Shown piece by piece: positions 484-49,418 of a DNA stretch of 49,418 nt. Source of the stretch: a virus; IMG/VR virus record IMGVR_UViG_3300044699_000006, positions 1-49,418 of that record. The stretch is one strand, 5' to 3'. The first letter of the stretch is position 1, and every line of letters begins with the position of its first letter. Below the pieces are notes generated by a model. The model was not told where the DNA came from. It was given only the letters and a program-made list of their open reading frames with translations, and did not search any database. The position numbers and the translations under genes are program-made.

Positions 484-684
484 GATAGGTAAGTTCGTGG
501 ACGGCAAGCGGAAAGCTTGCAAGGAGAACACGGGGCCATTCTCTAGGCGGACCAGATGCTAGTAAGTCGATTCTGGAAACCTAGATAATCCAGTGTGAAG
601 TTCTTTGAAAACTAAATAGATGGCGCACGGGTTAAAAGTTCCCTAAAGCCTATCGGTCTATCAGCTAACAAGGAGATAGAGCGT
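484..684 (+). ncRNA. Structured 5' leader upstream of the acidic-tail gene
   Basis: About 200 bases without a convincing gene lie between the candidate promoter and the start at 685. Visible hairpins are GCAAGC/GCTTGC (504-509, 515-520, loop GGAAA) and a two-part stem, CTAGG/CCTAG (543-547, 580-584) enclosing CCAGA/TCTGG (552-556, 572-576). From 614 the sequence enters the long-range stems described separately. The ribosome site AAGGAG lies at 670-675. I know no riboswitch or leader class that fits. Confidence 0.45.
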
Positions 685-1284
685 ATGGCAATTAAGACGT
701 ATGAATGCCGCATTGCACGACGCGGTAAGGCAGCGAAGGGAACGGTTTTAGTCACGACGTTTGGCAAGCCTGTAATCGCAAAGGATGCCAAGCCTACGGA
801 CCCGGTTAAGTTTTGGGATTACTCAGAACTTGCCAAAGTGGACCAAGACGTTGCAATTAAGGCAACGACAGAATCCACTGGTCTTACCGCATCGGAATTG
901 CTTTTCCGCGCGGCTGACATCGTGAACAAGTCCGAAGGAATCAAAGGACAAGGGCAGACGGTTCTGCTTACAGCGCGTATCTTTAACGAAGGTCTTGCGA
1001 CCGACGTTACCGAAGCGAAGAAGCTTGCCGCTCTTTGGGTTAGCATTCGCTCGCAGAACGCTGCCGTTGGACTTCCGGTTCCTGAGATTGACGACCTGCT
1101 TAAGCTTCGCAAGAAGTTCGTTGCGGACCTTAAAGCAAAAGGTCAGTGGGTTATCGCGGATAAGAAAGAATCCGCATTGCCCAGACTCGTAGACAATCGT
1201 CCGAAGGAAGAAGAGTCGGACGAAGAAGAAGTGGACGAAGAAGAGTCCGAAGAAGATACGGACGAAGAAGAATCCACCGAGTAA
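685..1284 (+). CDS. Unknown 199-residue protein with acidic C-terminal tail
   Basis: I do not recognise the family. The first 160 residues look globular and soluble with mixed charge; the last 30 or so are almost wholly Glu, Asp and Ser. An acidic tail of this kind may mimic nucleic acid or shield a basic partner. AAGGAG at 670-675 fixes the ATG. Codons are richer in C/G at third positions than in the following small genes, suggesting high expression. The gene sits alone with the 1357 gene between its own promoter and terminator, in the loop of stem P2. A second copy at 48348-48947 is the terminal repeat. Confidence 0.8.
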   Translation: MAIKTYECRIARRGKAAKGTVLVTTFGKPVIAKDAKPTDPVKFWDYSELAKVDQDVAIKATTESTGLTASELLFRAADIVNKSEGIKGQGQTVLLTARIFNEGLATDVTEAKKLAALWVSIRSQNAAVGLPVPEIDDLLKLRKKFVADLKAKGQWVIADKKESALPRLVDNRPKEEESDEEEVDEEESEEDTDEEESTE

Positions 1285-1356
1285 GTCAACCGGACCGATA
1301 GGTTTTATGGAGCCTTTAACCAGTGTTTTGTTAGTGGGCAGGAAAGAGAATCACTG

Positions 1357-1566
1357 ATGGCATACGTGAGCCCAAACTACAAGACGAAGAAAGAGTTTAA
1401 GGCGGCTGTTCTGGCTGCGCTTATTCATCGGCCTTTCAATCCTTCTGGGATGTTTCCAACTGAGCAGAATGGAATCGAGTTCATTGAAGGTCCGCATTAT
1501 CCGCAACCGCACAAGTGGTATGCGGAGTGCAAGGTTATCGACGGCGTAGTTGTTTCTGTCAAGTAA
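1357..1566 (+). CDS. Unknown 69-residue protein, second gene of the leader unit
   Basis: This small soluble protein is of no recognised family; a Pro- and aromatic-rich centre (FNPSGMF, HYPQPHKWY) suggests a compact fold. Its ATG follows AGGAAAGAG at 1340-1348, which lies at the loop end of stem P3 and can partly pair with TCTTC at 1575-1579, so translation may respond to folding. Codon style matches the 685 gene. In the right copy (49021-49230) an extra C opens an in-frame extension to 48970, and one Ala becomes Gly. Confidence 0.7.
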   Translation: MAYVSPNYKTKKEFKAAVLAALIHRPFNPSGMFPTEQNGIEFIEGPHYPQPHKWYAECKVIDGVVVSVK

Positions 1567-1613
1567 GTAAACAATCTTCAGCCCACTAATAAAGCATTGC
1601 GCCATCTATTTGA

Positions 1614-15161: not shown

Positions 15162-15177
15162 TAGATAGTTAACAAGT

Positions 15178-15261
15178 GGGACTATGGCGGAACTGGCATA
15201 CGCACTGGACTTAAAATCCAGAGGTAGCAATACCATAAGGGTTCGACTCCCTTTAGTCCCA
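15178..15261 (+). tRNA. tRNA-Leu (UAA)
   Basis: Acceptor GGGACTA (15178-15184) pairs with TAGTCCC (15254-15260), discriminator A. The anticodon arm is CTGGA-CTTAAAA-TCCAG, giving anticodon TAA. A long variable arm and T arm AAGGG-TTCGACT-CCCTT follow, as in type II tRNAs. CCA is not encoded. The gene is transcribed with the early operon and would support UUA/UUG reading. Confidence 0.95.
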
Positions 15262-15280
15262 ATACCAAAGGAGAAAGACA

Positions 15281-16559: not shown

Positions 16560-16818
16560 TGAAGAAGAACAGAAGCTAATATGCTACGTATGTAGAGAGC
16601 CGTTTAAGGATCATGACCTGGTTATTCCATTGATTGCTGGTATTAAAGCACCCTTTGGACATTTCCATGTTACGATCCTTCAACACTTTCTATGTGGATT
16701 AAACCATTACTTGGACAGTATGATGGAGGCACCTAATATTGCTAGTGTTGATAAGACTGCAATAGAAGCTAAGCTAATGGAAATCCTATCCAAGATGAGT
16801 GAAGGAACAAAACAATAA
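16552..16818 (+). CDS. Small Cys/His protein upstream of DNA polymerase
   Basis: 88 residues. CYVC near the start and H/C pairs further on (HFHVTILQHFLC) can make one zinc site. The remainder is helix. It ends one base before the polymerase ATG. A polymerase accessory is possible by position only. Confidence 0.5.
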   Translation: MSDEEEQKLICYVCREPFKDHDLVIPLIAGIKAPFGHFHVTILQHFLCGLNHYLDSMMEAPNIASVDKTAIEAKLMEILSKMSEGTKQ

Positions 16819-16819
16819 T

Positions 16820-19292
16820 ATGCCTAACATGGTAGCAGGACAAGGGAATCCTTATGCTAAGTTAGTAATACTAGGAGACTTCCCTAATCAAACAGAAGAT
16901 AGGATTCAGAAACCTTTTCTCGGTTCATCAGGCGATCTATTAGATAGAGTATTCACTGAACTAGGATATGCTAACTGGAGAACAGAGTTTTGGCTAACCT
17001 ATGTTTACAGGTATAGACCCCCGTTCAACGATATCAAACAGATTGAAACAGTCTGTGATATTGAAGAGGAGACTCAAAGATTATATAGAGAGCTTCTTTC
17101 TATTAATGCTAATTGTATTCTTACTATTGGTCCTAAAGCTCTCGAAGTCACAACAGGAGTATCCAAGCTATTAACTTATAGAGGTTCAATTCTACCATCC
17201 CAAGTAGGTGATGCTAAGATAGTAGGAACAATTCATCCTGGTCATCTAGTAAGAGCAACAGATGAATCAGAGGACCACGATGAATCAAAAGGAATGTTCT
17301 CTTACGTATGGAAATGGGTGTTACAAAATGACATCAAAAGAGCGATCCTTGAATCGAAAACAATGGGCTGCGACCTACCTAAAAGGTCACTCCTTATTGC
17401 AAGAAATAGTGTTGACGTATCAAGATTTATTGATAGGGGATTCAAAAGCTCGGACAGAGTATTTGCAGACATTGAAACAATTGAATGCACAATACCAGGA
17501 TGTATTAGCCTCGCTTACAACGAATACGAAGCTATCTCAATCCCGCTTTTTTCAAGAGTTGGACGATATGAACTCTCAACAATCCCAACCACCGACCTTG
17601 CCTTCATCTGGCAAAAGCTAGACTGGTTGTTTAGGAATAAGAAAGTAGGCGGACAGAACTTTAAGTTTGACCAAGCTAAGATGGAGATGTTAGGCTTTAG
17701 GTTCTTAGGACTAAAGACTGATACGTCTCTCAAAGCTCATACTATTAACCCGGAGATTCCATATGTTGGCTTGGCTTTTCTCGCATCCATCTGGACAAGA
17801 GAACCGTACTATAAAGATGAGGGTAAGGAGTTTATCTTTGGAAAGCATGATATCGACAGGTGGTATCTCTATAATGCTAAAGACTCCGCGGTGGATTGTG
17901 AAGTTGATAGAGTACAAGAACGAGAACTGGAAGTTTTATCCGATACTTACAAGACGGATCTTAAAGCATTTTATTATAATTATATTACCAAGCTCCACGA
18001 TTTTTACTTTGACATGGAGAAGGTTGGATTTGCCGTTGATAATGGAGTAAGAGATTATCTTATTGCCAAGTATCAAACCTGGGCTGACCATGTTCAAGTT
18101 CAATTAGATGTAGCAGTAGGACGAGGAGTTAATTACAACTCTCCTAAGCAAGTGAAAGAACTGCTATACGAGCAGATGAAGATTAAACCTATTGATAGGG
18201 ACCACGGGACTAACGAAGATGTTATCGCTAGACTTCTAAAGGATAAGATTACCGATGACTCCAAAAGAAACGTACTATCGAACATCCTCACACTACGCAG
18301 AGTTAATAAAACTCTATCAACATATCTCTACGCAATGCCAGACTTTGATGGCAGAATGCGAACCCAAGTTAGAATTGTTGGAACGGAAACAGGCCGATCT
18401 TCAGACGGTGTATTGGACCCACCAACTAGACCCTGTAAGATTGGATATGCATTTAAGACACTCACGAAAGCACGGAGATATCGGACAAGACATTAGAGGC
18501 GTTCTTATCACTGATCCAGGATTTGTCATCGTTAACATTGATCTTAGTCAGGCAGAAGGAAGGATCGTCGCACTCTTAAGTGATGATGATATTCTACTTA
18601 AAGCATATGATAAGATTGATATTCATAGGCGGACAGCATCCCTAGCACTATTCACTGGTCAGCTTAATCTATCCTATGATTTTGATCCTGTAGCTGATGT
18701 ATTAGGCAAGGATAGTCCTGAGCGTTTCATAGGTAAGAAGGTTCGTCATGCCGGAAACTATGAAATGCAATGGAAAGAGTTCCTAAAGAATGTTATCTCT
18801 GACTGTAGGAGATTCCACATTAGCTTTACTATGAGTGCTTTTAGTGCCAAGCAAATCCTTGAGAGATTCCATGCAGCTTCACCTAACATATCTCAAGTCT
18901 TTCATAAAGAGATTAGAGAACGGATTGATATGGACCGTGCTCTTATTAATCCTTTTGGTAGGCTTCGTAGGTTCTTTGAAAGACCGGGTCCTAGACTGTA
19001 TAAGGAAGCTGATGCTTTCATTCCACAATCAACAGTAAAGGATAGACTTACTCAGTCAGCGTTAGAGATTAAAGAGAAGAAGTATCCGATTCGGTTAGCT
19101 AATGAGGCTCACGATTCTCTTACCTATCTCATGCCCATCGGTGAGTATGTAGATATCTGTAAGGAACTTAAGCCTATTATGGAACAACCTATTGACTTCT
19201 CTACCTGCTCAATTAAGAGAGGTTCATTGGTTATTCCATGTGACTTTGAGTATGGTGATAACTACAAAGACCTATCGAAGCTCCGTTTCTAA
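16820..19292 (+). CDS. Family A DNA polymerase with UDG-like domain, frameshifted
   Basis: ATG 16820 (GTG 16799 is alternative). An N-terminal uracil-DNA-glycosylase-like domain (EDRIQKPFLGSSG; TIHPGHL) precedes a 3'-5' exonuclease with Exo I DIE (D217, E219), Exo II QNFKFD and Exo III YNAKDSAVD. Then come the family A motifs: TETGRSS, motif A NIDLSQAEGR, and motif C in which the usual HDE reads HDS. The frame breaks at 18464-18470 (ACGAAAG): dropping one A joins ...KTLTK to HGDIGQDIRG, as polymerase homologues require; otherwise TAG stops at 18496. Probably a single-base error. It replicates the phage genome. Confidence 0.85.
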
Positions 19293-47662: not shown

Positions 47663-48347
47663 ATTCTGGGGGGAGATGGAACAATATTAGTTTTGGGGTG
47701 TGGGGGGTGGGGTGGTGGGGGATGATGGAGTTCTCACACACTAACAGCTACCAGTCAACGATAAACTTTGCGGTATAAAGTAATAGTTAAGTCTAAGCTT
47801 TATACATTAGGTCTGTATAGACTTGTCCGGCCTGCCTGCCTGCACACTAGAGAATGACCCCACAAAGACCAGTAAAAGAGCATAACGAAAGAAAAGCGAA
47901 AATTGCCCTAGCAGGCACGAACGATACAGGGTCAATGGGTAAGGTGCGCCATCTGATTAGGTCCGCTCATATTGGATTCTGGGGCATTCTAGGGCATATT
48001 GCAAAATCGGGATTTGCATCATTTACAGCCAAGATTTTGATTAATCAAAAAGTACTCTACTGGAGTACCCTTTAAAGGTTAGGTCATTCAACCTTAAAAA
48101 TAGTTTGAAATAGTTGTTGACATAGGATTAGGCTCATGAGACATTAGATAGGTAAGTTCGTGGACGGCAAGCGGAAAGCTTGCAAGGAGAACACGGGGCC
48201 ATTCTCTAGGCGGACCAGATGCTAGTAAGTCGATTCTGGAAACCTAGATAATCCAGTGTGAAGTTCTTTGAAAACTAAATAGATGGCGCACGGGTTAAAA
48301 GTTCCCTAAAGCCTATCGGTCTATCAGCTAACAAGGAGATAGAGCGT

Positions 48348-48947
48348 ATGGCAATTAAGACGTATGAATGCCGCATTGCACGACGCGGTAAGGCAGCGAA
48401 GGGAACGGTTTTAGTCACGACGTTTGGCAAGCCTGTAATCGCAAAGGATGCCAAGCCTACGGACCCGGTTAAGTTTTGGGATTACTCAGAACTTGCCAAA
48501 GTGGACCAAGACGTTGCAATTAAGGCAACGACAGAATCCACTGGTCTTACCGCATCGGAATTGCTTTTCCGCGCGGCTGACATCGTGAACAAGTCCGAAG
48601 GAATCAAAGGACAAGGGCAGACGGTTCTGCTTACAGCGCGTATCTTTAACGAAGGTCTTGCGACCGACGTTACCGAAGCGAAGAAGCTTGCCGCTCTTTG
48701 GGTTAGCATTCGCTCGCAGAACGCTGCCGTTGGACTTCCGGTTCCTGAGATTGACGACCTGCTTAAGCTTCGCAAGAAGTTCGTTGCGGACCTTAAAGCA
48801 AAAGGTCAGTGGGTTATCGCGGATAAGAAAGAATCCGCATTGCCCAGACTCGTAGACAATCGTCCGAAGGAAGAAGAGTCGGACGAAGAAGAAGTGGACG
48901 AAGAAGAGTCCGAAGAAGATACGGACGAAGAAGAATCCACCGAGTAA
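48348..48947 (+). CDS. Acidic-tail protein, right terminal copy
   Basis: Identical in sequence to the product at 685-1284 and part of the terminal repeat, not an independent paralogue. See that entry for the domain description. Confidence 0.8.
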   Translation: MAIKTYECRIARRGKAAKGTVLVTTFGKPVIAKDAKPTDPVKFWDYSELAKVDQDVAIKATTESTGLTASELLFRAADIVNKSEGIKGQGQTVLLTARIFNEGLATDVTEAKKLAALWVSIRSQNAAVGLPVPEIDDLLKLRKKFVADLKAKGQWVIADKKESALPRLVDNRPKEEESDEEEVDEEESEEDTDEEESTE

Positions 48948-49020
48948 GTCAACCGGACCGATAGGTTTTATGGAGCCTTTAACCCAGTGTTTTGTTAGTG
49001 GGCAGGAAAGAGAATCACTG

Positions 49021-49230
49021 ATGGCATACGTGAGCCCAAACTACAAGACGAAGAAAGAGTTTAAGGCGGCTGTTCTGGCTGGCCTTATTCATCGGCCTTT
49101 CAATCCTTCTGGGATGTTTCCAACTGAGCAGAATGGAATCGAGTTCATTGAAGGTCCGCATTATCCGCAACCGCACAAGTGGTATGCGGAGTGCAAGGTT
49201 ATCGACGGCGTAGTTGTTTCTGTCAAGTAA
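49021..49230 (+). CDS. Unknown 69-residue protein, right terminal copy
   Basis: Copy of 1357-1566 with one Ala-to-Gly change (residue 22). The extra upstream C makes the frame open back to 48970, giving 17 added residues; this opening is absent from the left copy, so the short start is preferred. Confidence 0.7.
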   Translation: MAYVSPNYKTKKEFKAAVLAGLIHRPFNPSGMFPTEQNGIEFIEGPHYPQPHKWYAECKVIDGVVVSVK

Positions 49231-49277
49231 GTAAACAATCTTCAGCCCACTAATAAAGCATTGCGCCATCTATTTGA

Positions 49278-49318
49278 GGGAAAAGTGTCTATGAGAGTAG
49301 ATGCTTTTCCCTTTTTTT
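49278..49318 (+). terminator. Leader-unit terminator, right copy
   Basis: Same 14-pair stem and seven-T run as at 1614-1654. Confidence 0.9.
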
Positions 49319-49418
49319 ATGCCTTCAAGTTATAATCTATAGCCTATAATTTATAACCTTTATATATTATAACCAATAGATTATACAAAAGTAAGGGATG
49401 ATACCGGCTACTTACCGG

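Follow-up and report, generated by a model that had tools for sequence, protein, structure and literature searches.

Genes each enclosed by a long RNA helix of their own, downstream of a motif resembling the boxA of ribosomal RNA (rRNA) leaders, are the subject of this analysis of a viral record of 49,418 bp (IMG/VR IMGVR_UViG_3300044699_000006; its whole length is referred to below as the window). Near the left end of the window two open reading frames (ORFs) are bracketed by complementary arms, and in related soil phages up to six genes in succession are enclosed in the same manner, with arms whose sequences differ from phage to phage and whose pairing is kept. That these helices, here termed clasps, constitute a gene-by-gene architecture of the transcript can be regarded as close to certain. 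Since the genes are located between the arms of their own helices behind boxA, the messages are built like rRNA precursors. The best reading, considered probable but well short of secure, is that of a phage mRNA on the plan of precursor rRNA (pre-rRNA), in which a boxA-modified polymerase aids formation of the clasps and the duplexes are either cut or protective.

Long-range helices in the window

The features concerned are the following, with the type of evidence in parentheses.

484-613, + strand: structured 5′ leader, predicted to fold on itself (minimum free energy (MFE) fold)
600-618, + strand: boxA-like site of the rRNA type, GTTCTTTGAAAACTAAATA (one mismatch to the motif of relatives)
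614-627, + strand: outer closing stem, 5′ arm, beginning in the boxA tail (14/14 pairs)
630-659, + strand: clasp 1, 5′ arm (inverted repeat, fold, covariation in eight phages)
685-1284, + strand: ORF of 199 amino acids (aa), P0001, conserved in relatives, with an N-terminal RRGK(G/A)AKG motif and an acidic tail
1292-1321, + strand: clasp 1, 3′ arm (inverted repeat, fold, covariation)
1323-1339, + strand: clasp 2, 5′ arm (inverted repeat, fold)
1357-1566, + strand: 69-aa ORF P0002, enclosed by clasp 2; relatives have differing ORFs here
1581-1597, + strand: clasp 2, 3′ arm (inverted repeat, fold)
1598-1611, + strand: outer closing stem, 3′ arm (inverted repeat, fold)
1612-1649, + strand: intrinsic terminator, its first base directly after the outer stem (scan and fold)
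1-1754, no strand assigned: direct terminal repeat, left copy, containing the whole unit (1751/1756 identical; right copy 47664-49418)
48263-49263, + strand: right terminal repeat, with boxA, clasps and ORFs present a second time

A mechanical search for inverted repeats gave complete pairing of 614-627 with 1598-1611 (14/14), pairing at 30 of 33 positions, two of them G-U, between 626-658 and 1293-1325 (mismatches G.A, A.C and C.U), and complete pairing of 1321-1339 with 1581-1599 (19/19, three of them G-U). The MFE fold of 484-1655 has three abutting stems, 614-627/1598-1611, 630-659/1292-1321 and 1323-1339/1581-1597, and pair probabilities are about 1 across the body of each. Search and fold together bear out a preliminary description of this DNA in which three long-range stems nest without gaps, and the fold places two ORFs in stem loops as had been proposed there; the lengths of 33 (30 paired) and 14 positions given for two of the stems stand, while the third, put at 12, is now 19 positions long. 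The stems are also stable against the shuffled controls then suggested, with an MFE of -429.8 for 484-1655 compared to -351 ± 9 in 100 dinucleotide shuffles (z = -8.7). The main stem is the top long-range duplex of the entire window, its score of 64.6 exceeding the 47.6 that six block shuffles of the 49 kb reached at most. Pairing between gene flanks, assessed for 52 window genes, is strong for the two clasped genes only (-46.8 and -28.5 kcal/mol), the next best value being -22.7 and the median of the other genes -12.5 kcal/mol.

A separate observation concerns GTGCGCCATCTGATTAG at 281-297, upstream of the presumed transcript start. It is able to pair with 612-628, comprising the outer-stem 5′ arm and boxA tail, and if transcription begins further upstream it can be an alternative partner of that arm.

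One helix per gene in related phages

Compared records, whether related phages, viral contigs or Bacillota loci, are labeled with L-numbers. Of the 25 related records searched, 13 have a homologue of P0001, and in most of these the gene is located between arms of about 30 nucleotides (nt) that are unlike the window's in sequence and complementary to each other. Further genes downstream of P0001 in the relatives are each in their own clasp, with two to six clasps per row. L028 has six, all present in its MFE fold and situated, relative to boxA, at 197-228/857-888, 889-915/1191-1217, 1227-1265/1555-1593, 1701-1728/2135-2162, 2163-2192/2591-2620 and 2622-2652/3018-3048; L044 and L020 have five or six each and L005 four. 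A closed three-way junction like that of the window is found in L018 (with its near-duplicate L017), where an outer stem of 27 pairs starts inside boxA and encloses two abutting inner clasps, and a closing stem around two genes is seen only in these and the window. What is conserved is accordingly not the two-gene three-way junction of the preliminary description but one private clasp per gene.

Clasp helices are about 17-40 bp long, with about 25-40 bp for the conserved unit. For 49 stems with an ORF inside, a list that includes some without a good ORF fit, the ORF takes up a median of 89% of the loop, and median gaps of 20 and 10 nt separate the 5′ arm from the start codon and the stop codon from the 3′ arm, respectively. 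The Shine-Dalgarno (SD) region falls in the first of these gaps and is free of the helix; the gene is therefore translatable with the clasp closed. Many neighboring clasps abut (spacing -4 to +9 nt). Mismatches and wobbles are somewhat more common around positions 15-20 from the outer end, a possible protein site.

The small ORFs in second clasps are different proteins in different phages. One, starting MSEKLTGG and 71-84% identical between its occurrences, follows P0001 in L028 and L044 and precedes it in L020, always within self-complementary arms; the arms diverge with their pairing kept.

Conservation at the level of RNA

In a gap-free alignment of the P0001-clasp arms of eight phages (alignment A2), 92.6% of cells are paired and 21 of the 32 pairs have changed on both sides, which is the outcome awaited from the compensatory-change test that the preliminary description had proposed for homologous phages. 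Double-change cells number 59, compared to 19.1 ± 3.6 on shuffling, and the observed number was reached in none of 500 shuffles. Sliding the partner by one base reduces pairing to 45%, and slid partners never exceed that value. Self-specificity is evident from swapping 3′ arms among seven phages, where a mean of 150 cells are paired as against 190 of 210 with their own partners (a value attained in 1 of 5000 permutations). Within one array, pairing energies are -32 to -58 kcal/mol for cognate arms, as against mostly -5 to -25 and at the strongest -33 kcal/mol for non-cognate ones. Under a score with no preference between G-U and A-C, 109 pairs of the former and 50 of the latter were counted in the clasps (p = 3e-6), an excess that is to be expected only where the transcript strand does the folding and hence points to function as RNA. 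Compensatory change and G-U excess together thus uphold the earlier suggestion of a structure at the RNA level.

The boxA-like site and the resemblance to precursor rRNA

Bacteria place boxA, an antitermination signal, ahead of rRNA, where it is bound by NusB-S10 and, with NusA, NusG and SuhB, keeps the nascent leader on RNA polymerase and provides resistance to Rho. Chance would supply 0.31 matches to the phage motif in the window at up to three mismatches, and the motif recurs before clasps in relatives as TTCTTTGACAACTGAATA and variants. A boxA scan of viral contigs yielded 108 distinct places. Stems with a score of at least 50 were present within 75 nt at 7 of the 108, versus none of 288 control places, and with a score of at least 45 at 12 of the 108 versus 4 of 288. 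For stems starting in the boxA tail itself (score 42) the comparison is 6/99 versus 1/295, which is moderately significant with L106 counted twice. Profile search detects no 199-aa gene in L081, L155, L099, L185, L178 and L080, yet these boxA matches have clasped ORFs, and the clasp spacing is kept in some contigs without that gene, as in L081 where the start is 24 nt after one arm and the stop 8 nt before the other. Matches of boxA plus stem in L177, a CRISPR (clustered regularly interspaced short palindromic repeat)-like repeat array, and in L102, a repeated sequence, were not counted as examples. Two observations on boxA stand by themselves. L106 has, at 439 and 13060 (reverse strand), two inverted boxA motifs about 430 nt apart and perfectly complementary, and in L238, a Bacillota genome, a boxA near Rfam SQ2397 and pemK RNA matches, with a flank nearly as in contig L098, may represent a further role of boxA outside rRNA.

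Operons for 16S rRNA retrieved from Bacillota with an Rfam model have a boxA-similar motif, e.g. ATCTTTGAAAACTGAACA, 85-190 nt before 16S. In five of the seven loci tested (L240, L241, L245, L246 and L247) the outermost leader-trailer duplex starts inside boxA, and no such boxA-starting helix was found in L243 or the truncated L250. The phage outer stem shares this anatomy, starting inside boxA in L018 and at the boxA tail in the window. The exact phage boxA pattern was encountered in 0/100 and 3/150 in two phylum draws, being mostly absent there because many of the entries are metagenome-assembled genomes (MAGs) without rRNA and rRNA boxA differs at three to four positions. The 16S and 23S rRNAs of E. 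coli are each enclosed by a leader-trailer helix, 27-44 bp long, that serves as an RNase III substrate, and the one around 16S is essential (PMC10250234). Also for E. coli, the 'delivery' model has the boxA-bound Nus complex keeping the leader close to the RNA exit channel, so that distant 3′ parts find it (PMC6614801).

With pre-rRNA, and its rRNA transcription antitermination complex (rrnTAC) and RNase III processing, the phage unit has in common a boxA-type leader sequence, a long flank helix beginning at or near boxA and comparable in length to those of E. coli, and the bracketing of each functional unit by its own helix. It differs in that the units are protein genes and not rRNA (the region has no rRNA family match and its ORF is conserved as protein-coding), in having up to six clasps in a row, and in the two-gene closing stem. 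By analogy, then, the phage unit would work like pre-rRNA, though it is no rRNA operon. Where the preliminary description knew of no class of RNA with such a plan, pre-rRNA with its boxA and leader-trailer helices can now be named as the nearest.

Other comparisons are less close. RNase III processing of T7 early mRNA is at intercistronic sites, with local hairpins between genes. The polycistronic phage transcript here also has RNA duplexes between genes, but unlike those of T7 each spans a whole gene; a stable local intercistronic hairpin was not found, hairpins at the junctions of abutting arms being weak (-7 to -20 kcal/mol). A boxA in a phage leader is likewise a feature of lambda nut, with its boxA, boxB and N protein, but here boxA runs straight into a long-range arm in place of boxB, and no N-like antiterminator was recognized among the window proteins scanned, a subset of the total. 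Also pertinent is suhB, whose boxA, 6 nt from the SD, represses translation, and other mRNAs too carry boxA (PMC5725501); the likeness is a boxA in an mRNA leader, and the difference that the passages of that source on suhB feature no gene-spanning helix. In the literature searched, which was open access only, neither gene-spanning helices in phage mRNAs nor the gene-after-gene layout of long-range helices in any other mRNA was found described, so that novelty is provisional.

Proposed mechanism and alternative explanations

On the pre-rRNA plan, boxA near the 5′ end of the transcript would be bound by NusB-S10, and the nascent leader would be kept on a Rho-resistant polymerase. At the RNA exit channel each 5′ arm could then be joined by the matching 3′ arm, which is transcribed several hundred bases further on. 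Each gene would come to lie in the loop of its own helix with the SD outside the duplex, so that a closed clasp would not prevent translation. As duplexes of RNase III type, the helices would most likely be cut to give end-paired, nuclease-resistant single-gene messages; alternatively they may stay, sealing ends and insulating neighboring genes. We infer Nus binding, co-transcriptional assistance, cutting by RNase III, stability and early expression.

Several points weigh against this proposal. The boxA pattern, at up to two mismatches, was not found in L005, L020, L023 or L034, all of which have clasps or clasp-like stems, and most boxA places in viral contigs are without a strong stem. In the window the terminator adjoins the outer stem, which leaves antitermination little to do there. 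Homologues of P0001 in L009, L035 and L041 are apparently unclasped, and the cultured distant relatives HMO-2011, CRP-1 and HTVC103P have neither boxA nor clasp in the parts examined. The Bacillota rRNA leaders beside which the phage boxA was set may not be those of the host. A sigma-70 consensus scan near 450-490 gave no good promoter; of the promoter-to-terminator transcript earlier envisaged, the terminator at 1612-1649 is confirmed and the exact 5′ end is provisional.

An explanation that we consider unlikely, but that deserves attention, is that the clasps are never cut. They would join both ends of each gene's message against exonucleases, stop ribosomes running on into the next gene and bring the terminating ribosome near the start, with boxA only shielding from Rho. 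It accords with the gene-specific arms and with both ends of the gene being within the loop, the start codon and SD some 20 nt from the 5′ arm and the stop some 10 nt short of the 3′ arm, so that a closed clasp allows translation. However, RNase III ordinarily acts on near-perfect duplexes of more than 20 bp. The equally long helices of rRNA are cut (PMC10250234).

It is improbable that the boxA RNA is mainly a decoy, expressed from both terminal repeats, that draws NusB, S10 and SuhB off host rRNA synthesis, with clasps serving only to stabilize it. The boxA is near the rRNA type and its terminal-repeat position doubles gene dose, but the enclosed gene is protein-coding and conserved, and downstream clasps distant from boxA are also kept. 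Sequestration of ribosome-binding sites by the arms is more doubtful again. Staphylococcus aureus offers a precedent in icaR, an mRNA in which the 5′ and 3′ untranslated regions pair with each other to form an RNase III substrate that covers the SD and represses translation (PMC3868564); in the phage the SD is between arm and start codon, and the long helix, unlike that of icaR, leaves it free.

Little credence is given to the arms being DNA elements, whether as terminal inverted repeats or as sites at which mobile gene cassettes recombine, despite the MSEKLTGG cassette being after P0001 in L028 and L044 and before it in L020, and short motifs common to arms of different cassettes. The excess of G-U over A-C on the transcript strand and the two-sided changes are at odds with the DNA-level conservation and equal G-T and A-C rates of transposon terminal inverted repeats, arms within one genome differ and are self-specific, and no transposase or recombinase was recognized in the window's clasped ORFs. 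As for a GOLLD- or ROOL-like reading, with a large noncoding structural RNA and incidental ORFs, phages do carry such RNAs and the fold is very stable, but it is scarcely credible given that the region has no covariance-model match to these or any other Rfam RNA, that the loops are about 89% coding and that 13 of 25 related records preserve the ORF as protein.

Clasped proteins and genome context

P0001 has no match among isolate phages, Pfam, PHROGs or PDB sequences, and its AlphaFold model (predicted local distance difference test 81, predicted template modeling score 0.47) matched no fold at E <0.001. A sub-cut-off GP67 match to the acidic tail in L034 and a weak dsrm match in L009 were set aside.

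The direct terminal repeat is of 1754 bp, and as the unit is inside it, the unit is present at both ends of the genome. The two copies differ at about five positions, including an extra C in a clasp 3′ arm and a GC/CG swap within the small ORF, and the differences may be true variation or assembly error. The start of the repeat (1-60) is very G-rich with GGGG runs, a possible quadruplex or packaging signal. Just to its right, at 1740-2130, iteron-like GACCGG/CCGGT repeats flank a stretch (1821-1859) that has 97% identity in L005 and is similar in L018; the region is a candidate replication origin.

Replication genes of the window are directed rightward and structural genes leftward. The DNA polymerase is split across two overlapping ORFs, 16799-18496 (565 aa, PHROG DNA polymerase) and 18255-19292 (345 aa, Pfam DNA_pol_A), and there is a tRNA-Leu gene (anticodon TAA) at 15177-15262. 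An Rfam scan of the window gave only the tRNA and two chance-level matches, with none in the clasp region. The terminase is 60-98% identical to those of many viral contigs and about 30-33% identical to those of Pelagibacter HTVC103P-like, Roseobacter CRP-1-like and HMO-2011 phages. No DNA similarity of the window to phage records was found, and a host search by terminase led only to distant MAG contigs. Around the first genes of CRP-1 (L232 1059-1077/2223-2241) and HMO-2011 (L233 59-75/1261-1277) there are palindromic repeats of 17-19 nt about 1.2 kb apart. Considered as clasps, these pairs were judged to be something different, possibly a protein-binding site or a phage promoter element.

Implications

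Whether pre-rRNA architecture serves several phage lineages as a general route to making mRNA is finely balanced. On such a scheme boxA and a private, self-specific helix for each gene would, with help from the host's rRNA antitermination complex, free each gene as an end-sealed message, and genes would move as cassettes whose arms diverge yet stay self-complementary. If true, these phages borrow the machinery of rRNA transcription and folding for their messages, and provide a natural assay of the unsettled Nus 'delivery' role in joining RNA ends that are hundreds of bases apart. It would also be a route to stable, insulated genes within one transcript.
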